From the IMG/VR virus record IMGVR_UViG_3300025138_000256, positions 1 to 28,233 of that record: a stretch of DNA of 28,233 bases. One strand, 5' to 3'. The stretch comes from a virus. Shown one piece after another: positions 2,807 through 27,272 of the stretch; within the stretch, counting starts at the first letter, position 1, and every line of letters begins with the position of its first letter. Both the position numbers and the translations under genes were made by a program. Under the pieces are notes generated by a model, which did not search any database, had not been told where the DNA came from, and saw nothing but the letters and a program-made list of their open reading frames with translations.

Positions 2807-5800
2807 TTATGCAATTGTTATATTTATACTTGTTATGGGTGTTGGATCATTTTTATATCTTATTATAACTATAAAATCTTGATCCGAACTATCTAAAACC
2901 ATACCATCTCCATTTCTCATTGGTATGTTGTAATTATTTCCACTTATACTACCCCCAACATTACCATACAGAGCAATATTTGATGTGAATGGATTTATAA
3001 ACCCATCAGCTGCTTGACTAGCAATAATAACATTATCTACTGTATTCGTAGGGTCGAAAAATCTTGGTGGGGTATAAGTTCCAGTTCCTGAACTTTTAAA
3101 TATTATTGCTGCAGACACACCGTTTGATGTTGAATTCCAAGCTTGTAAAGTAGTACCTAAACTCATAGTTACACTACCAGCTCCAGTATTTAAATTTCTT
3201 TGAAATGCTCTAGCATAATAAATATAATCCCCGGATGATGCATTTGCTGGTGACCAATAACCATATGAACCTCCAGCTTCAACTAAATATCCTGGTTTAA
3301 CTTGTAATTCTAAAGGATCTAAAATATATTCATCATATGTTGATGTTGTGAATTTATCACCACCTGCATATGTTCCTACAAGTAAATTATTATTAATTTT
3401 TATTCTATTATCTTCACCCGAGAAATTTTCAGTCCATGTTGTTGTTCCAACTAATGCACTTCCATCATACCCTTGAGCTCTACCATAGTAAGCCATTGAA
3501 CCCGAAGCTGTTAAAGCTCCAAATGTTCCTGGTTTAAAAAATTCATATGTGTTTGTATTAGTATTTATATCAACACCGTTTCTTCTCCTACATCTATCTT
3601 CTGTTGTAAATGTTGTAGGAGTAATTGTAGCTTGTCCTATATTAGTTGTACCTGTAGTACCAGCATTTACTACTAAATCACCTGCTAATTTAACAATATC
3701 ATTTTCAGTTGGAACAATTCCAATTGTTCTAGCATCTACTCCTGTTGAATCATATATGAAATTAGATGTTTGAACTGAACCACCATTTGTACTTCCTAAA
3801 TCTACACCACCTGTTCCATTATTAATTACTAATATTCCATTAGATTCAAATATTCTTGCAAATGTAGTACTGGATGCAAACATGGGATTAAATGCATTTG
3901 TAATAGATGCTGATGATTCCCAAGTAGCTGTTAATAAATAATTAGCACCTGAAAGTGATCTTGAAGTAACTGTTAATGATTGGCTACCGAAGTATCCTAT
4001 AGTAGGTGTATTTGTAGATATACCACTATTAATTGCAGTTGTTGGTGCATAAAATATTTCCTCATTTTGGGCAAAGAAATCTGAATAATCAGATGAACCT
4101 GATTGTACTGCAACCGAGGATGAGAAATAATAATAGCCTGATGATGTTACATTACTTAAACCAACACCACCATTATATAATAATTGATCAAAAACACCTG
4201 CAAATTTACCATCTTGATAAGCATCTGGAATTAAAGCATTACCTGTTTCAATATTCCCAATAGTTAAACCATTTGCTGTTCCCGGTCCTGTTTTTGATAA
4301 AAGGTGAATTGAAGTTGATATTGCTGTAACTGGACTTTTTGCTGAGTTATCATAAAATATATATTGATCTGATCCTGATACATTAAATGCTTGTCCTATA
4401 TTTCCTAAACCAAATAATTGAGTATCAGCAGATGAAGAAACAATTGTTGAACCTCCTGCTACTGATGAATATTCTTTTTTAAAAGACGTATTATTATAAA
4501 TTGGGCTAATACCACTAAATATAGTTGCACCAGGAGTTGCAAATCCTTTTGAATTTAAATAATTAATTACGTCGTTAGTACTCGATTGAGGTACACGTCC
4601 GCTAGGTGCTGTACCAGTATCAGTGTTCGATGTAGCTACGCCTAAACTTGCGTAAGTACGTGTGTTTGGTGCCGCATCTGGTGCAGATGCACTTAATAGC
4701 CCAGCCATAAATCTTACTATTTCGGCTGTATCTGTATTATGGTCAAAATTATTAAAATATGAACCATCTAAATCTGTTTTCCATGCTTTTGATGTTGGAA
4801 CTCCTACATTATCTGTGTAATGCCACATTGACTCACTTATAGTCATAGCATATTTATCTACACCACCACCTGTTCCTGCATTTGAAGCCGTTATATTAGC
4901 TCCGGTTGTTGTAAATGGTGATTGTTGTATTGTACTTCCTGTTACTTGTAGCGAAGAAGTAGTACCAAAAATAGTACCTGTTACTACATTAAATATTCCA
5001 TCTGTAGATGCTGCTGCAACATCGAATGTTATACCAGTATCACTTGTTCTTGTTATAGTAACATTTGTACCTCCAGTTAGTTTTACATCGTCAAAAACGA
5101 AAGCACTATCAGTAAGTCTTAGACTAGGATTTGTTTCACCAGTAGCCCCACTTAAAGTTATTATAGCACCACTATCACCACCACTTATTACTATATCGTT
5201 ATCACCTACTAAATATCCAGTACCTGGGTTATTTATTGTAACTGTTTGAACTCCTCCTCCTGACACTACTGTGTCAACTGTCATACCTGTTCCAGATCCA
5301 CCTGTAGTTGCTACACCTAAAGCTGAGCTATATCCTGTGCCCATAGGTGGAGAATTTACTACACCACTAGGAATAGTTCCAACTGCTAAATAATCATAAG
5401 TTGTACTACTCCCGTATGATCCTGTACTAAAGAATTGACCTGTAGTAGAGTCATACATTACTGTTTTAAAATTAGTATCTGTATTATCTGTTACCGTAGC
5501 GAATAAATTTCCACTAGCACTTACATTACCTGTAACAAAAACACCTGAACCCGTAGTTCTAAATTTTTCAGAACCACTAAAATATAATTGAACTACACCA
5601 GAAAGTGAATCTGCTGCTACCCCTCCTTTAGTTCCCCTAAAATAATTACCACCAAGATTATCTTCTAATACAAGTGAATTTGCTGCTCTTAAAAATAAAA
5701 ATCCTTGCCCTTGATCCTCTATGTAACTATTACTACTATCATGATAAATTTTTAAATCACCACCACCTCCACCAGCTTTATCACCTAATCTTATAAAAGT

Positions 5801-6169
5801 ATTATCTGGTAAAGAAATATCTCCGTTAATACCAAGTGAACCTGTTATTTGTAAATCATTTGTAGTAGCATAAAATGAACCGGTTTGAACAAATATACCT
5901 GATCCTCCACCACCACCACCTGAAGAATTTATTGTTACTACACCTTTTCCATCTGCAGGAGAAATTGTAACATTAGATCCTGCTATAATTTGGTTAACAC
6001 CAGCTTGGGCACCTCCTATATCTACACTATGGGTAACACTACTACTTGGAAAGAAAAATGAAAGAATATTTCCAGATAAAGAACTAGAATAGTAGAGGGA
6101 TTGAAAATTTCCATCTACTTCTGCGAACGTTAATTCTGAGCCTTTATTCTGTCTTAATATTATACCCAT
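2807..6169 (-). CDS. Large tail-fibre-like structural protein (1120 aa)
   Basis: The 1120-residue product is rich in Gly, Ser, Thr and Asn and poor in Cys, typical of beta-structured phage fibres. Near the N-terminus, residues 7-25 contain KGSELTFAEVDGNFQ, which resembles a short motif I know from the start of many phage tail-fibre and tail-tip proteins. A poly-Gly stretch lies around residues 84-90. A segment near residue 315 (GTGYLVGD) matches repeats in the 453-residue protein at 8938-10299. The C-terminal 200 residues are more globular, with Tyr and Trp, and could be a receptor-binding or trimerisation region. A promoter-like motif ends 10 bases before the ATG, with no Shine-Dalgarno site. 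An odd Arg-rich cluster (DRCRRRNG) occurs near residue 860. The exact place in the virion is unknown; a fibre or baseplate-attached role is inferred from composition and from the collagen-like gene that follows. Confidence 0.7.
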   Translation of the reverse strand: MGIILRQNKGSELTFAEVDGNFQSLYYSSSLSGNILSFFFPSSSVTHSVDIGGAQAGVNQIIAGSNVTISPADGKGVVTINSSGGGGGGSGIFVQTGSFYATTNDLQITGSLGINGDISLPDNTFIRLGDKAGGGGGDLKIYHDSSNSYIEDQGQGFLFLRAANSLVLEDNLGGNYFRGTKGGVAADSLSGVVQLYFSGSEKFRTTGSGVFVTGNVSASGNLFATVTDNTDTNFKTVMYDSTTGQFFSTGSYGSSTTYDYLAVGTIPSGVVNSPPMGTGYSSALGVATTGGSGTGMTVDTVVSGGGVQTVTINNPGTGYLVGDNDIVISGGDSGAIITLSGATGETNPSLRLTDSAFVFDDVKLTGGTNVTITRTSDTGITFDVAAASTDGIFNVVTGTIFGTTSSLQVTGSTIQQSPFTTTGANITASNAGTGGGVDKYAMTISESMWHYTDNVGVPTSKAWKTDLDGSYFNNFDHNTDTAEIVRFMAGLLSASAPDAAPNTRTYASLGVATSNTDTGTAPSGRVPQSSTNDVINYLNSKGFATPGATIFSGISPIYNNTSFKKEYSSVAGGSTIVSSSADTQLFGLGNIGQAFNVSGSDQYIFYDNSAKSPVTAISTSIHLLSKTGPGTANGLTIGNIETGNALIPDAYQDGKFAGVFDQLLYNGGVGLSNVTSSGYYYFSSSVAVQSGSSDYSDFFAQNEEIFYAPTTAINSGISTNTPTIGYFGSQSLTVTSRSLSGANYLLTATWESSASITNAFNPMFASSTTFARIFESNGILVINNGTGGVDLGSTNGGSVQTSNFIYDSTGVDARTIGIVPTENDIVKLAGDLVVNAGTTGTTNIGQATITPTTFTTEDRCRRRNGVDINTNTNTYEFFKPGTFGALTASGSMAYYGRAQGYDGSALVGTTTWTENFSGEDNRIKINNNLLVGTYAGGDKFTTSTYDEYILDPLELQVKPGYLVEAGGSYGYWSPANASSGDYIYYARAFQRNLNTGAGSVTMSLGTTLQAWNSTSNGVSAAIIFKSSGTGTYTPPRFFDPTNTVDNVIIASQAADGFINPFTSNIALYGNVGGSISGNNYNIPMRNGDGMVLDSSDQDFIVIIRYKNDPTPITSINITIA

Positions 6170-6179
6170 TTAATTTTAT

Positions 6180-6189
6180 TTATAAATAT
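6180..6189 (-). promoter_or_regulatory. Promoter-like motif before the large fibre-like gene
   Basis: A perfect ATATTTATAA continuing as ATAAAATTAA, ending 10 bases before ATG 6169, in the 40-base gap after the gp15-like gene. If the motif is the -10 element, the transcript leader would be only a few bases long. Confidence 0.55.
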
Positions 6190-6209
6190 TATGAATTACC
6201 ACAATATTA

Positions 6210-7169
6210 CTATTGATCTTCAAACTTCGAAAGTGAATTGTCTGTTTGAATGCCCAAACGTGGATTTGGGTTGACCCTATTATTTTGTTGTATTTGTTCT
6301 ATACCTGATACTGTTTCATTAGTAAATACTAATTGTACTGGGGTGTTAAATTTTTTATTAATTTTACTTATTTGTTTTTGTATTGTATCAGGAACAAGAT
6401 AACCATACAATTTTAAAGAAAATGTTGCTTGGACAGATCTTTCTCCTTTTTGTTCAACTTGAACTGGTGTAGCATAATTATCTATTCTAGCTCTAAATTG
6501 AAATCTTTCAGGATTACCCCAATATGAATCAGAAGCATAATTTATAGCTTCAATAATTTTATTTAATTGCTCTATATAATAAGTAGCTATGATAAAATCA
6601 TAAGTCATATTAACATAATCAGGAACAACAACGGCATAATTTGTTTTTATTGGTCTTTGGTTATTTAAAATAGCAAAATTATCATATGCATTTGAAGTAC
6701 TATATTGTTTTTGAAAAATACTTACATTATGGGGATTATTAGCATCTAATTTATTTGCTACTGTTCTTACTTTTTCAATATTATTACGTTTAAAAGTAAT
6801 TAAGGGTAACATTATTTTACCTTTTTTATCTCTATAATATCCATCTTTTTGTACTTGCTTCCACCTTTCAGGTGAACCATATATAAATGGTACTTGTTGA
6901 ACTGCCCCATTTTGAATTACTGTAGGTTGAATTACTTCTTCCATATAGTACATTATAGCTTCATCAATATCTTTAATCCCTAATGTAAAAGGTTTTGTTG
7001 TATCATCTCTAAATGATATTTGATTACCTCTATTTGGTGTATCGGCATCATTAGGATTACCAATCTCAGCAAAACCAGGTGAGCCCTCTGGAGGACTATA
7101 AGGTTCAATTTGAGAATTTAAAATTTCTCTTTGAGTTTTTGGTGTTGGTATTATTCCTCTATTAGCCAT
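6210..7169 (-). CDS. 15: gp15-like tail sheath terminator / tail completion protein
   Basis: The 319-residue protein has the layout I remember for T4 gp15, the ring protein that caps the contracted-tail sheath and joins tail to neck. VPFIYGSPERW (residues 93-103) corresponds to the VPITYAS segment of gp15. It is followed by LPLITFKR (121-128), then a central part with a YDFIIATYYIEQLNKIIEAI helix-like stretch and a late segment (SVQATFSLKLYGYLVP) like the SLTFEVNGWMYP part of T4 gp15. It is somewhat longer than T4's 272 residues, with an additional N-terminal arm rich in Pro and Asn. Its start overlaps the end of the gp14-like gene by 8 bases, and the order gp13-gp14-gp15 is the T4 order. The match is from memory of motifs, not an alignment. 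Confidence 0.7.
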   Translation of the reverse strand: MANRGIIPTPKTQREILNSQIEPYSPPEGSPGFAEIGNPNDADTPNRGNQISFRDDTTKPFTLGIKDIDEAIMYYMEEVIQPTVIQNGAVQQVPFIYGSPERWKQVQKDGYYRDKKGKIMLPLITFKRNNIEKVRTVANKLDANNPHNVSIFQKQYSTSNAYDNFAILNNQRPIKTNYAVVVPDYVNMTYDFIIATYYIEQLNKIIEAINYASDSYWGNPERFQFRARIDNYATPVQVEQKGERSVQATFSLKLYGYLVPDTIQKQISKINKKFNTPVQLVFTNETVSGIEQIQQNNRVNPNPRLGIQTDNSLSKFEDQ

Positions 7170-10309: not shown

Positions 10310-10319
10310 TTATAAATAT
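10310..10319 (-). promoter_or_regulatory. Promoter-like motif before the 453-residue structural gene
   Basis: The minus strand reads ATATTTATAA followed by CAAAAACA, ending 10 bases before the chosen ATG at 10299. It matches the copy before the gene starting at 24431 almost base for base, including the CAAAAACA that follows. There is no terminator between phoH and this site, so read-through from the upstream cassette is also likely. Confidence 0.55.
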
Positions 10320-10363
10320 ACAAAGAATGCTCCCAATTTAGAAAACCTTCCTTAAAATATTAT

Positions 10364-11098
10364 TTATTTTTTGTATTTTCCGCTACTTCCTGAGGTACCT
10401 TTAAACATACCCTTTTCTTCAGCCTCTTCATAAACCTCAATCAAATCATCAACAATAGGATCCCTATGATTTTGCATTAAAGTTATACCAGTCATTTTTT
10501 TAATTCTTCTAGCTGCTGCATATAAAAATCTAAAACCAGAATCTGCTTTACCTCTTAAATCAATTTGATGATCATCACCACAAACTATCATTTTAGATCT
10601 TAAACCAATTCTAGTTGATATCATTTCCATTTGCTCATGAGTAACATTTTGTGCTTCATCTACTATAATACATGAATCTAGAAATGTTCTACCCCGCATA
10701 AATGCTAAAGGTACTATTTCTATTTTTCCATCTTCAATTAATTTTTCAACTTTAACTTTATCAAATAAAGAATACATATTTTGGTAAATAGGTTGAATCC
10801 AAGGATCCATTTTTTCTCTTAAATCACCTGGTAAAAATCCAATTTCTTCTTTTGATACTGTAGGACGTGTAATTATAATTTTTGTATAATGTCTTCTTAA
10901 TAGTCCGTCTAATGCTATATTACAAGCTAATAATGTTTTACCTGACCCTGCTCTACCAGCTAATACTGATAGTGTATGGTCTAATATTTTTGCTTTTGCT
11001 TCTTTTTGCTCTTCGTTTAATTGTAATTTAAATTTAATAGGATTTTTAACTATTCTTTTTTTTCTAAATACCTCGTCCTTATGATGGTTCGATGTCAT
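10364..11098 (-). CDS. phoH: PhoH-like P-loop ATPase
   Basis: This 244-residue protein is a clear PhoH-family NTPase. Walker A is GRAGSGKT (residues 48-55), Walker B is IIVDEAQN (144-151), and further family motifs TRPT (77-80), GDDHQIDLRG (174-183) and QNHRD (209-213) are intact. The family is a superfamily-1-helicase-like ATPase; in bacteria it was first linked to phosphate starvation, and it is very common in marine phages, where its function remains unclear, possibly RNA processing. The length is normal for phage PhoH, which lacks the KH or PIN domains of cellular versions. Its start overlaps the end of the PSD-like gene by 20 bases, which suggests translational coupling and one transcript with that gene and the amidinohydrolase. 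No upstream phosphate box is recognisable, and no terminator follows the stop codon. Confidence 0.95.
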   Translation of the reverse strand: MTSNHHKDEVFRKKRIVKNPIKFKLQLNEEQKEAKAKILDHTLSVLAGRAGSGKTLLACNIALDGLLRRHYTKIIITRPTVSKEEIGFLPGDLREKMDPWIQPIYQNMYSLFDKVKVEKLIEDGKIEIVPLAFMRGRTFLDSCIIVDEAQNVTHEQMEMISTRIGLRSKMIVCGDDHQIDLRGKADSGFRFLYAAARRIKKMTGITLMQNHRDPIVDDLIEVYEEAEEKGMFKGTSGSSGKYKK

Positions 11099-11813
11099 TA
11101 TTCGTTTCTTTAATTTTGATTAATTTGTCAAGACCTGCATTTACATGCATTGTATCGTCTAGAATGGTCTCAAATTTATATCTAGAATCTAGAGGTAGAA
11201 CTAAATCTACTTGTGATCCCCATCTAATCAAACTGAATCTTTCGTTTTGTGTACAAAGATCCCCTTGTTGTTTAAAAGGGGCTATTACATTTACATCTTC
11301 ATCTGCTATTTGTATTATGTGGTATGTGTAATCTAAAGAAGGAACATACACTTTGTTAGACATTCTTTCATTGTACTTTAAGTACGCCATGTTGTTAGGG
11401 TTGATTACTTTATTTAAAATATCCTTCTCTACTGCTAACATTGGTTTATTAGTTGACTCTATAGGTTCCAAACGGTTGTATTTAAGCACACCACCATAAG
11501 GAATTCTATTTATATGTACATCATAAAATGACATAAATATTCCAATAACTAAAGAAGGTTTATTGTAACTACTATCACCCATTACATCTTGGATAGTATA
11601 ATCAATACCTTTTATTTCTAAAACTTGCTCACCAGGTTGAACTACTTTTTGGTATAAAATAGTACCATCTGCCGGGCTATAAAAATGTTTATAATCTATT
11701 TGGGTTGATCTTAAGGGATCTCTAAAAAAGAATGTATTACTTAATTCCCCTACTGATAATTTTGATAATTCATTTACTTCACCATTTAACCAATCTTCTA
11801 AAGTCTCAGCCAT
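11079..11813 (-). CDS. psd: Phosphatidylserine decarboxylase-like pyruvoyl enzyme (proenzyme)
   Basis: The 244-residue protein carries the ordered signature of phosphatidylserine decarboxylase (PSD), which turns phosphatidylserine into phosphatidylethanolamine plus CO2 using a pyruvoyl group made by self-cleavage. FFFRDPLR (28-35) is followed by YSPADG (45-50, Asp49), IKGIDYTI (67-74), FYDVHINRIPYGG (96-108, His100), NER (148-150) and IRWGSQVDLVLP (196-207). The Gly199-Ser200 pair is where the short bacterial/archaeal PSD form cleaves, so Asp-His-Ser are all present and the enzyme should be active. Oddly, the N-terminus is hydrophilic and acidic, with no membrane segment, so it may be soluble and could act on another carboxylated amine, as some PSD relatives do. 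Its ATG overlaps the preceding stop codon (TAATG) and its end overlaps phoH by 20 bases. Confidence 0.85.
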   Translation of the reverse strand: MAETLEDWLNGEVNELSKLSVGELSNTFFFRDPLRSTQIDYKHFYSPADGTILYQKVVQPGEQVLEIKGIDYTIQDVMGDSSYNKPSLVIGIFMSFYDVHINRIPYGGVLKYNRLEPIESTNKPMLAVEKDILNKVINPNNMAYLKYNERMSNKVYVPSLDYTYHIIQIADEDVNVIAPFKQQGDLCTQNERFSLIRWGSQVDLVLPLDSRYKFETILDDTMHVNAGLDKLIKIKETNNDIEPS

Positions 11814-12727
11814 TAAAGAAGAGATTTAAAATGATCAACTCTATTTAAATGCATTACCATACAACTTAACATAGCACCTGATTTCATATATTCTGATAAA
11901 TTAAATATTACAGGCTCCATTCCTTCATCAGAACATATTTTTTCTAATGAAGCTATTTTGTGTTTTTCACCTTCATAAAATTCATCTCCTCGTTTCATTT
12001 CAGAAACGTTTGAAGCACATAAAATCATATTACCTAATCTAACAGAATTAGCCATTCCATACATTGAGTCTTCAGCATCTATGTCTATTATGTTAGTATA
12101 GTTGCTTATTTGCGCTAACTCGGTTTTATCATACAACTCCGTACAAACCATAGTTGACCGCGTATTTAACGGGAATATACTACAATCTAAATGGTACATA
12201 TATTCATCAACCATTTTAACTTTAATAACTTTCATATCAAAATTTTCTTCCATCCAATGGTATGTTTTTATATCTGAACGAATATCATATCCTCCTATAT
12301 AAACATTATCTTTTAAATATTTTATATCTGCTTCACCTTCCCATTTATGGGGTGATATATGAGTATTATAACCCATTTGTTTAAAGAATTTTTCACCTAC
12401 ATATTCTTCACCTTGTCTTGGTGGTGAAGTATAATTAGATAATAAGATGTGATTTTCATCTTTAATATGTGGTAATTGTAGTCCTAAATTTGCTACATAA
12501 ATTAAATCTTGAAAGTTACCTTCTGCGGGTAGCAAATGTACTAAAGATTGACCAGCCATAAAATTATATAAGTCCATAAATTGCTTATATGCTTTTGGTC
12601 TGTTAATTGATAATTCTTTATTTGACATTTCCTTCATCCAAACATTATTTGGATCATCTGTTGAAAAGGTATGCGGGAAATTCATTACGTAACTTTGAAT
12701 TGGTAACTGTGAGGGAGTTTCTTTCAT
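11813..12727 (-). CDS. Amidinotransferase/DDAH-fold (guanidine-modifying) enzyme
   Basis: The 304-residue product fits the dimethylarginine dimethylaminohydrolase / arginine deiminase / amidinotransferase superfamily. These enzymes attack a guanidino carbon with an active-site Cys, assisted by a His and acidic residues. Visible motifs in order: NFQDLIYVANLGL (71-83; substrate loop), SPPRQGEE (101-108), EGEAD (130-134), GGYDIRSD (145-152), YHLDCSIFPLN (178-188; catalytic His179), AEDSMYGMANSV (218-229) and SGAMLSCMVMHLN (283-295; probable nucleophile Cys289). The catalytic set looks complete. The overall pattern is nearest to DDAH-like hydrolases, so likely products are citrulline or ornithine-type compounds, but substrate cannot be read from sequence. 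It is the first gene of the cassette: a promoter-like motif lies 21 bases before the ATG, and its TAA shares a base with the PSD start. Confidence 0.75.
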   Translation of the reverse strand: MKETPSQLPIQSYVMNFPHTFSTDDPNNVWMKEMSNKELSINRPKAYKQFMDLYNFMAGQSLVHLLPAEGNFQDLIYVANLGLQLPHIKDENHILLSNYTSPPRQGEEYVGEKFFKQMGYNTHISPHKWEGEADIKYLKDNVYIGGYDIRSDIKTYHWMEENFDMKVIKVKMVDEYMYHLDCSIFPLNTRSTMVCTELYDKTELAQISNYTNIIDIDAEDSMYGMANSVRLGNMILCASNVSEMKRGDEFYEGEKHKIASLEKICSDEGMEPVIFNLSEYMKSGAMLSCMVMHLNRVDHFKSLL

Positions 12728-12748: not shown

Positions 12749-12758
12749 GTATAAATAT
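12749..12758 (-). promoter_or_regulatory. Promoter-like motif before the amidinohydrolase-psd-phoH cassette
   Basis: On the minus strand the site reads ATATTTATAC, one base from the consensus, preceded by TTAGT and followed by CCAAACAAAAC. It ends 21 bases before the ATG at 12727 and lies directly downstream of the capsid-gene terminator, so the cassette probably has its own transcript. Confidence 0.5.
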
Positions 12759-12787
12759 ACTAACTACTAACCCAGTAGCCAAATAAC

Positions 12788-12814
12788 AAAAAAAAGCCCC
12801 GCTAATGCGGGGCT
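12788..12814 (-). terminator. Rho-independent terminator after the major capsid gene
   Basis: The minus strand has an 8-base perfect GC-rich stem, AGCCCCGC / GCGGGGCT (12795-12802 with 12807-12814), a four-base loop and then eight T residues. It begins 30 bases after the gp23 stop codon. It is by far the strongest hairpin in this AT-rich window and should separate capsid expression from the downstream cassette. Confidence 0.93.
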
Positions 12815-12844
12815 CTTAATTACTATTATTTTAAAATCTTAATA

Positions 12845-19671: not shown

Positions 19672-19681
19672 TTATAAATAT
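19672..19681 (-). promoter_or_regulatory. Promoter-like motif between portal and the 285-residue gene
   Basis: The minus strand has a perfect ATATTTATAA preceded by TTTTAGT and followed by AAAAATAAG, 14 bases from the ATG at 19657. It occupies most of the short gap after the portal gene. Confidence 0.55.
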
Positions 19682-19691
19682 ACTAAAATTA

Positions 19692-24447: not shown

Positions 24448-24457
24448 TTATAAATAT
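24448..24457 (-). promoter_or_regulatory. Promoter-like motif before the 184-residue gene
   Basis: A perfect ATATTTATAA preceded by TTTCGTG and followed by CAAAAACATA, ending 16 bases before ATG 24431. It overlaps the stop codon of the kinase gene by one base. It probably starts the membrane-protein and terminase transcript. Confidence 0.55.
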
Positions 24458-24987
24458 CACGAAATAATTGCCTGTTTAACTAATTTTATACGTTCTTCTG
24501 TTGCACCTTTAATTTCAATTAAATTTCTAATTTTATGTCTATATTTAATAATTAATAATTGAATAGCTTCATCAATAGTTTTTCTGTAATCAGCATTAGT
24601 TTCCCTCACACCATTATTTTCTATTTCTACACCCTCAGGAGATATGTAAAAGATATAATCATACTCATTTAACATATTACTTGCAAAATGACAAAAATCA
24701 TTTGCTTCTATATAATTCATTGATTCAGATGATTTAGCAAATGCCATTACATCAATAATTGTCCTGTCTGTTATAATATTATCTTGTATCAATTCACTAG
24801 CTCTTTCAGCTAAAAATATAGCTTGACCCTTAACAGTAGAATCTGTATTTAATGGTATACCCATTTCCATAAGATACTTAGAACGCTCTGTTCTAGTTGT
24901 ATAATCTTTAAATTCTGGTAATTTAGCTAAAGCGTTAACTAAAGTTGTTTTACCTACTGACATTGTACCACAAAAACCTATTTTCAT
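24457..24987 (-). CDS. P-loop nucleotide kinase-like ATPase (AAA_28/NadR type)
   Basis: The 176-residue protein has Walker A GTMSVGKT (7-14), a TTRTERSKY segment (30-38) like the substrate or lid region of small kinases, and IITDRTIIDVMAFA (71-84), the DR-x-x-x-D pattern of deoxynucleoside- and ribosylnicotinamide-kinase-like enzymes. This combination resembles the AAA_28 family related to the NadR kinase domain. It therefore probably phosphorylates a nucleoside-like substrate such as a nicotinamide or deoxynucleotide precursor, but the substrate cannot be assigned. It lies in the accessory block between a 94-residue hypothetical gene and the packaging genes and has only one base between it and its upstream neighbour. 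The domain call is firm; the reaction is not. Confidence 0.75.
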   Translation of the reverse strand: MKIGFCGTMSVGKTTLVNALAKLPEFKDYTTRTERSKYLMEMGIPLNTDSTVKGQAIFLAERASELIQDNIITDRTIIDVMAFAKSSESMNYIEANDFCHFASNMLNEYDYIFYISPEGVEIENNGVRETNADYRKTIDEAIQLLIIKYRHKIRNLIEIKGATEERIKLVKQAIIS

Positions 24988-24988
24988 A

Positions 24989-25273
24989 TTATATAGTATA
25001 TCGTTCGTTTCCTAACATTATTTTTAAAACATTTTCTGGAATTGCAGAATCTACATATGGATCTAATTTAGCTACAGCTTGAGTTACATCATGCGCTATA
25101 ATAGGAACTGTTTTAATTGTTCCTTTATCTATATATTTACACTCATATAGTAAATTATCCTTAATTTTAGATAAACCTAATAATTTTACTTCTAATATTG
25201 CAGTATTTCTATCTGTTTCTAGTAGAGCAGCAGCTAATTCTTGATCCTCTTTTTTATATTTTTTTCTTATCAT
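24989..25273 (-). CDS. Hypothetical protein (94 aa)
   Basis: No family is recognised. The 94-residue protein has a basic start (MIRKKYKKED), a helical segment (about 10-32) and alternating beta-like stretches such as LLYECKYIDKGTIKTVPIIA. There is no signal peptide, membrane helix or Cys cluster. The reading frame is tightly packed (2 bases after the cupin gene, 1 before the kinase), which supports it being a real gene translated with its neighbours. A small regulatory or DNA/RNA-handling role is possible but there is no evidence. Confidence 0.55.
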   Translation of the reverse strand: MIRKKYKKEDQELAAALLETDRNTAILEVKLLGLSKIKDNLLYECKYIDKGTIKTVPIIAHDVTQAVAKLDPYVDSAIPENVLKIMLGNERYTI

Positions 25274-25275
25274 AG

Positions 25276-25689
25276 TTAAAATGGTAAACCTTCATTATTA
25301 TTTTCATCTTGTGATGCCCCAGGTAAAATCCTATAACTATCACTGTCAAAGTGTTGTGTTGATACCTCGAATATACAACTTCCTTCTTGCAAAGCCAACA
25401 TTTGGTGGGGTTGTCCTGGAATTAAGTGAATACAATCACCTTCTTTAACTATTTTAGATCTTAATTCTGCAGTTTCAGTGTCAATATATTTATATTCAAA
25501 TTCACCTTTATTAATATACCAGGCTTCATCTTTTAACATATGATAATGCATTGAAAATTGCTTATTAGCTTTAAATACTAATAATTTACCACAATATTTT
25601 TCATTGTTAATAATCCATAATTCATGACCCCAAGCTTTTTTATGAATTTCACCTTTATAAGGTAAAGCTTGTATTGTTGATTCTCTCAT
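25276..25689 (-). CDS. Cupin-fold protein, sugar-isomerase-like
   Basis: This 137-residue single-domain cupin has the metal-binding pattern of the family: His48-x-His50 in MHYHMLKDEAWYI, Glu55, and His95 in PGQPHQM. A Gly-rich turn (KGEFEY) separates the strands. The opening KAWGHELWIINNEKYCGK (18-35) and the STQHFDSDSYRI segment near the C-terminus resemble mannose-6-phosphate-isomerase-type or polysaccharide-synthesis cupins found in some marine phages. The likely role is sugar or sugar-nucleotide modification, perhaps related to host surface glycans. It is packed between two small hypothetical genes by 2-base gaps, downstream of the FAD dehydrogenase. The fold is certain; the substrate is inferred only in general terms. 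Confidence 0.8.
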   Translation of the reverse strand: MRESTIQALPYKGEIHKKAWGHELWIINNEKYCGKLLVFKANKQFSMHYHMLKDEAWYINKGEFEYKYIDTETAELRSKIVKEGDCIHLIPGQPHQMLALQEGSCIFEVSTQHFDSDSYRILPGASQDENNNEGLPF

Positions 25690-25691
25690 AA

Positions 25692-25967
25692 CTAGTTTCT
25701 ATATGTTTCACCTTTAGGAGCTGATTGCTTATACCAAGGTAAACCTTCTCTCTCTTTCATAATTTCATTATAAATTTCTTCATCATATTCAATGCCACTT
25801 AAAAAATATCCTTTTTTAAATTCGCTTTTTCTAGACATTGGAACTATTGCTGGGTTATCCCATCTATGGTGTTTAAAATGCTCTTCACCTTCCATTCTTA
25901 TTAAGTAATGTCTTGCTCCTTTATACTTAATTACTTTTTCTTCATATAGTCTTTTACCTTTACCCAT
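25692..25967 (-). CDS. Hypothetical protein (91 aa) with an HRWDNPA motif
   Basis: The 91-residue product is basic at the start (MGKGKRLYEEKVIKYKG) and contains HHRWDNPAIVP (33-43) followed 11 residues later by YFLSGIEYDEE. This resembles one copy of the HR-x-GPA / NG repeat found in many unassigned phage and bacterial proteins, with Asn replacing the usual Gly. The function is unknown. It lies 3 bases downstream of the FAD dehydrogenase stop and 2 bases before the cupin, so it is translated as part of the same accessory operon. Confidence 0.55.
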   Translation of the reverse strand: MGKGKRLYEEKVIKYKGARHYLIRMEGEEHFKHHRWDNPAIVPMSRKSEFKKGYFLSGIEYDEEIYNEIMKEREGLPWYKQSAPKGETYRN

Positions 25968-25970
25968 AAT

Positions 25971-27272
25971 TTATATTTTATTTATTAATTGTTCTGCTAC
26001 TAATGTACCTTGTGCTCCTGATACTGTTATTCCTCTTGCACTTAATGCATCACCAACAAAGTGTACATTAGGATATTTTGTTAAACTTAAATCTTTATAA
26101 TTAACTAATGGCTCAGGTGATAAGTACTTTATTTCTGGTACATACACACCCCAATCATCTCCTAATGTAGGAAATACTTTCTTCATATCATCAATAAAAT
26201 CATCAATGTATGTATAATAACCTTGAAATGCTTCTCTAATTTCATCTAATGAATCAATTTGAACAGCACTTACATCAATACCTTCAGATGTAGATGACGG
26301 TTTGCGAGTAGGACTATAAAATAATCCTGTTGCTTCTTTTTGCACTTTGCCTACTAATTCTCTAGACCATTCAAATGGATTTTCTATACCTTGTACTTCC
26401 ATTAGAATACCAAAATTAGTCATATCATTTCTAAATGCTTCATCTTTTTTAGCATGTCCATTGTATGAATGATCTCCATACGTTTCTTCAACGGCAACAT
26501 ATGCTGCATTGTTGTTTGTACAGAATGAACGTAATGATACTCCTTTGTCTTCGAATTTACGATATAATTTAAAATCATAAGATACATCAATTAATTTTTG
26601 AAAGTGTTTTTGTGGTGCTTCAAATCTAACTCCTATTTGTACTGGTTTAGGTTCAGTTGGTAAATCATATTTTTCAGCTAATACCTTACCAAAGTCAATA
26701 CCTGATTTACCTACACCAAAAATAAGTTTATCATAGTGTTGATTTATATTAGCTAGCCCTTTCTTCCATGAAACATGATTTTCTTTAAAATTAATATCCT
26801 CTACCTTAGTTTCCCAAATAAATTCAACACCATTATCAGCTAAAAAATTATACCAATTTTTACCTATTTCATGTAAGTAATCTGTACCAACGTGCCATAC
26901 TGGGAATAATCTTAATCCAAAATATGGTTTAATAAATTCTGGTTCCGCTGTAGGGTTCGAACATTGTACTTCTGAGGGGTTTGGGTGAAAACGTTTAAAA
27001 TTGTCAATTACTTGATCAAATAGCTCCATTGCTTTTTCTTCACCACAATATTTACTTAATTGACCCCCAATTGATGTGTGATAAGTTAACTTACCATCAG
27101 ACCAACCACCAGCTCCTAAAAAGCCAGTCATTACTTCTTCATAGGGTCTTCGATAAGGATCTTTACCCATATCAATAATAGTGATTTTGCCTTGAAAACC
27201 TTCATCAACTAATTTAGTGGCAGCATTTACATTTGCTACTCCTGCACCTATCATTACTACTTTATTATTCAT
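25971..27272 (-). CDS. FAD-dependent dehydrogenase (COG2509-like)
   Basis: The 433-residue protein is a two-dinucleotide-type flavoprotein. The N-terminal FAD-binding Rossmann motif is VVMIGAGVANVNAA (5-18), a GxGxxN variant. GAGGWSDGKLTYH (53-65) is the signature I associate with COG2509-type uncharacterised FAD dehydrogenases. An internal VGKSGIDFGKVLAEK region follows, and near the C-terminus FVGDALSARGITVSGAQG plus a final helix closes the flavin site. Length is near the family norm, and no residue loss is obvious. The substrate is unknown even in cellular members. It begins the accessory operon: a promoter-like motif lies 18 bases before the ATG, directly after a terminator, and it is followed at a 3-base gap by the 91-residue gene. 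A flavoprotein of this kind is unusual in a phage late region. Confidence 0.8.
   Translation of the reverse strand: MNNKVVMIGAGVANVNAATKLVDEGFQGKITIIDMGKDPYRRPYEEVMTGFLGAGGWSDGKLTYHTSIGGQLSKYCGEEKAMELFDQVIDNFKRFHPNPSEVQCSNPTAEPEFIKPYFGLRLFPVWHVGTDYLHEIGKNWYNFLADNGVEFIWETKVEDINFKENHVSWKKGLANINQHYDKLIFGVGKSGIDFGKVLAEKYDLPTEPKPVQIGVRFEAPQKHFQKLIDVSYDFKLYRKFEDKGVSLRSFCTNNNAAYVAVEETYGDHSYNGHAKKDEAFRNDMTNFGILMEVQGIENPFEWSRELVGKVQKEATGLFYSPTRKPSSTSEGIDVSAVQIDSLDEIREAFQGYYTYIDDFIDDMKKVFPTLGDDWGVYVPEIKYLSPEPLVNYKDLSLTKYPNVHFVGDALSARGITVSGAQGTLVAEQLINKI

Follow-up and report, generated by a model that had tools for sequence, protein, structure and literature searches.

A coupled gene pair for an ArgZ/AgrE-like enzyme and a PSD-like decarboxylase in phages: a possible arginine-to-putrescine module

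Two enzyme genes in the late region of a marine T4-like phage form a coupled pair, and our analysis suggests that they might act together, as a phage module, to convert L-arginine into a small amine during the late phase of infection. The first gene encodes a guanidino-group enzyme (GME) of the ArgZ/AgrE-like arginine dihydrolase type, and the second a pyruvoyl decarboxylase of the phosphatidylserine decarboxylase family (PSD-like). In the mechanism that we propose, GME would hydrolyse arginine twice to give ornithine, ammonia and CO2, as ArgZ/AgrE does. The PSD-like protein would cleave itself at Gly199-Ser200 to form its pyruvoyl group, and would then act as decarboxylase on the free amino acid that GME releases; this is most likely ornithine, which would yield putrescine. 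The pair would be transcribed from its own late promoter beside the capsid genes, and the amine may serve as a counter-ion that neutralises the DNA during packaging and may also aid translation. This route from arginine through ornithine to putrescine is the best supported of the mechanisms we considered, and we put it forward tentatively.

The window, i.e. the whole stretch of DNA that was analysed, is an IMG/VR virus fragment of 28,233 nt (record IMGVR_UViG_3300025138_000256, positions 1 to 28,233). Its late region is T4-like, with a Gp23-type major capsid protein and a prohead protease recognised by family search, and with a portal and a terminase assigned from their position and their similarity to Fletchervirus genes. 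As described in an earlier note on this DNA, three overlapping genes lie on the minus strand between the terminator of the major capsid gene and the next late gene, namely GME (11813-12727, 304 aa), the PSD-like gene (11079-11813, 244 aa) and a gene for a PhoH ATPase (10364-11098, 244 aa). The stop codon of GME and the start codon of the PSD-like gene share one base in a TAATG junction (11811-11815, minus strand), and the PSD-like and PhoH genes overlap by 20 bases. The terminator, a GC-rich hairpin followed by a T-run, is at 12792-12817 on the minus strand, upstream of the pair. Elsewhere in the window, a minus-strand gene of 900 residues or more with abundant GSSG/GTSG-type repeats, which probably encodes a tail fibre, runs off the contig at 3-2798, and the long plus-strand ORF over the same interval is its antisense. 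A cluster encoding a P-loop kinase, a cupin and a FAD-type oxidoreductase (24457-27272, minus strand) lies upstream of the packaging genes and represents possible further auxiliary metabolism.

GME matches phrog_12759, a PHROG family of unknown function, and had no Pfam match in the family search. It matches the NCBIfam arginine dihydrolase model with an E-value of 7e-25 and 88 bits, below the equivalog cut-off of 450 bits, and scores about as well against a mycobacterial dimethylargininase model, so we use the term ArgZ-like and refrain from assigning it to ArgZ proper. AgrE and ArgZ were the best, and the only convincing, hits in a profile search of solved structures (E 4e-29 to 7e-26), and DDAH reached an E-value of 0.4. 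The AlphaFold model of GME (pLDDT 91) gave the same picture, matching ArgZ/AgrE at 3e-19, with DDAH (2e-11), the amidinotransferase SxtG (6e-11) and AstB (5e-9) farther off and agmatine deiminase also far behind. The earlier note had called the enzyme DDAH-like; both the profile and the fold comparisons place it with the arginine dihydrolases instead, and DDAH is disfavoured as its nearest relative.

The active site is consistent with this placement. An Asn at the position of ArgZ Asn71 marks the double-hydrolysis enzymes, whereas ADI and DDAH have Asp there. GME N80 aligns with Asn71 and is invariant in all 115 alignable sequences; structure 6juz, in which a reaction intermediate is bound covalently, carries a mutation of Asn71. 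R104, E130, R150, H179, D181 and C289 are likewise invariant wherever they can be aligned. R104 and R150 occupy positions that we take to hold the substrate carboxylate in ADI and DDAH, and because both are invariant, an alpha-amino acid such as arginine, and not agmatine, is the expected substrate. Judged from alignment and model, the proposal that GME acts on arginine appears well supported, and better supported than the substrate of the decarboxylase. GME thus shares with ArgZ/AgrE of the cyanobacterial ornithine-ammonia cycle (PDB 6juy-6jv1, 6lrf-6lrh) the fold, the catalytic Cys/His/Asp/Glu, the dihydrolase Asn and the carboxylate-binding arginines. It differs in being a single-domain protein of about 21% identity to them, lacking the ornithine cyclodeaminase domain, and in being phage-borne and coupled to a decarboxylase.

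An alternative hypothesis could be that GME is an amidinotransferase, and that the product of the pair is a guanidino amine, a modified nucleotide or some small metabolite other than putrescine, which is exported in the bacterial carriers. This is the name that the enzyme bears in Campylobacter phage records, and the superfamily fold has further matches in SxtG, AGAT and the polyamine amidinotransferase HsvA (E 6e-11 to 1e-9). The bacterial copies of the pair, which are followed by MATE or ABC exporters downstream, are rare accessory genes: searches of 347 genomes of the class and 301 of the order each yielded one carrier, the query genome itself. We nevertheless consider an amidinotransferase unlikely, since the E-value for ArgZ/AgrE is lower by eight orders of magnitude, and since the Asn of ArgZ is invariant in the family.

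The order of the two steps could also differ from the one proposed. The PSD-like protein could be an arginine decarboxylase that makes agmatine, with GME handling a related guanidino compound or separately supplying ammonia and ornithine, again for a polyamine purpose. Phage-encoded pyruvoyl ornithine and arginine decarboxylases of the AdoMetDC family are already proven (PMC9992855, PMC10407285), so a phage arginine decarboxylase of the pyruvoyl type has a precedent. Agmatine-deiminase-like (PAD_porph) enzymes are encoded by two of the pair-carrying phages. One of these genes is inserted between GME and the PSD-like gene (L306:9133-9996), where its product would join GME in handling such compounds; the other, in Bacteroides phage DAC19 (MT074139.1:106362-107369; L455:6339-7391), sits away from the pair. 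Both enzymes score far below the curated agmatine deiminase cut-off, and none was found in the eight marine records searched. Moreover, the two arginines expected to hold an alpha-carboxylate are kept in GME, which makes agmatine an improbable substrate for it, and we rate this order as less likely still than an amidinotransferase. The agmatine-deiminase-like genes and the exporters fit an arginine and polyamine theme without settling it.

Putrescine made from arginine or ornithine by a pyruvoyl enzyme is the purpose also proposed for the known polyamine metabolism of phages and viruses, i.e. the AdoMetDC-derived pyruvoyl ornithine and arginine decarboxylases and the viral arginase with ornithine decarboxylase (PMC9992855); the enzyme families of our pair are unrelated to these. 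In the survey of PMC9992855 arginase was not found in phages, and neither phosphatidylserine nor dihydrolase comes up in its main text. Neither AdoMetDC nor spermidine synthase was found in the 11 phage records searched, so it would fall to the host to supply any later polyamine step and to use or extend the putrescine. The Sulfurimonas carrier retains speA, in two pieces split across contig ends, so that the pair is not the sole putrescine route of this carrier and is accessory there; the idea that it replaces a missing speA is not supported.

The PSD-like protein matches Pfam PS_Dcarbxylase (PF02666) over nearly its whole length, with an E-value of 1e-23 and 84.5 bits against a gathering score of 22. 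It stays under every curated NCBIfam PSD/ASD cut-off, reaching 79 bits where the best model requires 183, and matches phrog_12670, again a PHROG family of unknown function. With the PSD family, including PsiD, it shares the profile, the GS self-cleavage site and the DG and H active-site motifs: D49 (Asp-Gly), H100 and G199-S200 are invariant in 116 of 116 sequences, and G199-S200 is the predicted self-cleavage site. It departs from the canonical enzymes in the cleavage motif, which is invariantly GSQ in the family and GST in the canonical PSDs of two carrier genomes, in its coupling to GME, and at its N-terminus. A hydrophobic N-terminal segment that anchors the protein in the membrane is typical of short-type PSDs, and other PSD types are without one. 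Hydropathy of the first 60 residues revealed no such segment or helix in the PSD-like protein, the maximum mean value being 0.2 for the window protein and no higher than 0.8 across the family, against 2.3 for a short-type PSD relative.

A fold search with the PSD-like model, whose pLDDT of 76 is fair, returned PsiD as the sole PDB match with probability 1.00, a weak match by E-value (4e-3) and TM score (0.41); its viral matches were giant-virus PSD proteins. PsiD, a member of the PSD family according to PMC12603985, decarboxylates free L-tryptophan, and is thus an example of the family using a free amino acid. The model comparison suggests that the substrate of the PSD-like protein might likewise be a free amino acid.

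These observations bear on another reading, in which the protein is a true phosphatidylserine decarboxylase, its action increases the phosphatidylethanolamine of the infected membrane, and GME serves some unrelated purpose. The PS_Dcarbxylase match, the retained catalytic residues and the annotation as phosphatidylserine decarboxylase in Campylobacter phages all speak for such an enzyme, which we nonetheless regard as improbable. It would have to be reconciled with the NCBIfam scores and with the lack of the hydrophobic N-terminal helix. The two bacterial genomes with the reversed pair described below each carry a separate canonical PSD, so the PSD-like protein is not their housekeeping enzyme. 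A CDP-alcohol phosphatidyltransferase of phospholipid synthesis was not found in the phages searched, and why the gene is so closely tied to that of an arginine enzyme would be left unexplained. The earlier note had guessed at one pathway that remodels an arginine-derived or amino-lipid compound. The coupling of the enzymes holds, and an arginine-derived amine is the better fit; the amino-lipid half is the weaker one, and on present evidence we do not see a lipid system here, the lipid route being disfavoured.

The coupling of the two genes was followed through 450 fetched loci, many of which come from overlapping stretches of the same contig. They contain 139 distinct GME-PSD DNA sequences, nearly all with the genes adjacent, and both genes are complete in 126. 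Loci with a single gene end at a contig edge, except for two Fletchervirus loci and one other (L449). In the latter, which has GME without a PSD-like gene, a different ORF (5628-6629), probably a homing endonuclease judging from its GIY-YIG-like look, follows directly after GME, shortly before the end of the contig. In a search of 50,697 phage records, the PSD-like gene is present in 45 and GME in all 45 of those; one more record has only a 35% partial match to GME. These counts overstate independence, because the records fall into a small number of phage lineages (marine T4-like, Bacteroides DAC-type, Fletchervirus and L306). The weight is carried by the rearrangements. The gene order is reversed in a Sulfurimonas (L299, genome G001) and a Methylococcaceae (L298, genome G002) chromosome, the two genes are on opposite strands and 1.6 kb apart in L308, and L306 has the insertion mentioned above. 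They are adjacent in DAC19, and in Campylobacter Fletchervirus both are present, unlinked. The earlier note had asked whether adjacency extends beyond close relatives; it does, and the link survives reversal, strand switch, insertion and a chromosomal location. That the two genes are genuinely coupled is strongly supported.

The protein trees of GME and the PSD-like protein co-vary (mirror-tree r 0.96), which shared descent alone would also give. Both enzymes are under purifying selection, with dN/dS of about 0.02-0.3, dS being near saturation in the more distant pairs.

Genes with a homing-endonuclease annotation or match adjoin or overlap the PSD-like gene in DAC19 and Fletchervirus (L158:9779-11299; L159:9731-11185), and homing may be directed at the conserved pair. 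In two relatives of the window phage (L007 and L018) GME is 94-97% identical to that of the window and the capsid protein only 72%, which suggests mosaic exchange or an unusual constraint on GME. Although this 97% identity and the homing-endonuclease genes beside the pair in several lineages could be read as the mark of two unconnected auxiliary genes that happen to occupy one hot spot and are carried along jointly by chance or through exchange driven by homing endonucleases, we find that reading very hard to credit, as distant lineages keep the adjacency despite other order, strand and neighbours, and Campylobacter phage records keep both genes though unlinked.

PhoH is identified by its family match (PF02562, 208 bits against a cut-off of 27, E 1e-61). 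Marine T4-like phages have it directly after the pair, some of them in a 44-49% identical version. In the Bacteroides, Campylobacter, L306 and bacterial loci, no PhoH gene was found next to the pair. A three-gene cassette including PhoH, as the earlier note had it, is hence rejected, and PhoH is a neighbour rather than a part of the coupled unit.

The GME/PSD-like junction is conserved beyond chance, with the exact 1-nt overlap kept in 103 of the 126 distinct complete pairs, and makes translational coupling of the two genes probable. The promoter-like motif of their own that had been noticed ahead of the genes is borne out. The probable late-promoter motif GTATATTTATA lies upstream of GME, the first gene of the pair (12750-12760, minus strand), and occurs nine times in the window at up to one mismatch against 3.35 expected, a count reached by no shuffle. 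Further exact copies on the minus strand (10311-10321 and 19673-19683) each stand ahead of a late gene. Among relatives, the motif TATAT[TGA]TA is found within 100 nt of the start codon in 69 of 95 distinct upstream stretches (6% in simple shuffles), and a terminator hairpin lies upstream of the pair in 81 of the 95. GTATATTTATA is a candidate for the late promoter in this group of phages.

Both enzymes have homologues in Campylobacter Fletchervirus, which are annotated as an 'amidinotransferase' and a 'phosphatidylserine decarboxylase' and in most records share 33-37% identity with the window proteins. In Fletchervirus NCTC12673 the two genes are about 42 kb apart, and the annotation never links them. 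The view that no such phage system had been described was therefore nearly right: both genes are annotated, separately and far apart, and we found no publication linking them in Campylobacter or Bacteroides phages in the literature searched. Because the Campylobacter jejuni and Bacteroides phages with both genes are isolates with known hosts, the idea is directly testable.

We speculate, with slightly more reserve than for the mechanism itself, that the pair represents a widespread phage pathway in which an arginine dihydrolase and an ornithine (or arginine) decarboxylase of the PSD fold make putrescine, and which has also moved into or from bacterial chromosomes together with an exporter. If this is true, pyruvoyl polyamine decarboxylases would have arisen a second time, independently, out of the PSD fold instead of AdoMetDC, and the pair would provide a phage arginine dihydrolase. 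It would also give a concrete function to phrog_12670 and phrog_12759, two families found in marine, gut and Campylobacter phages.
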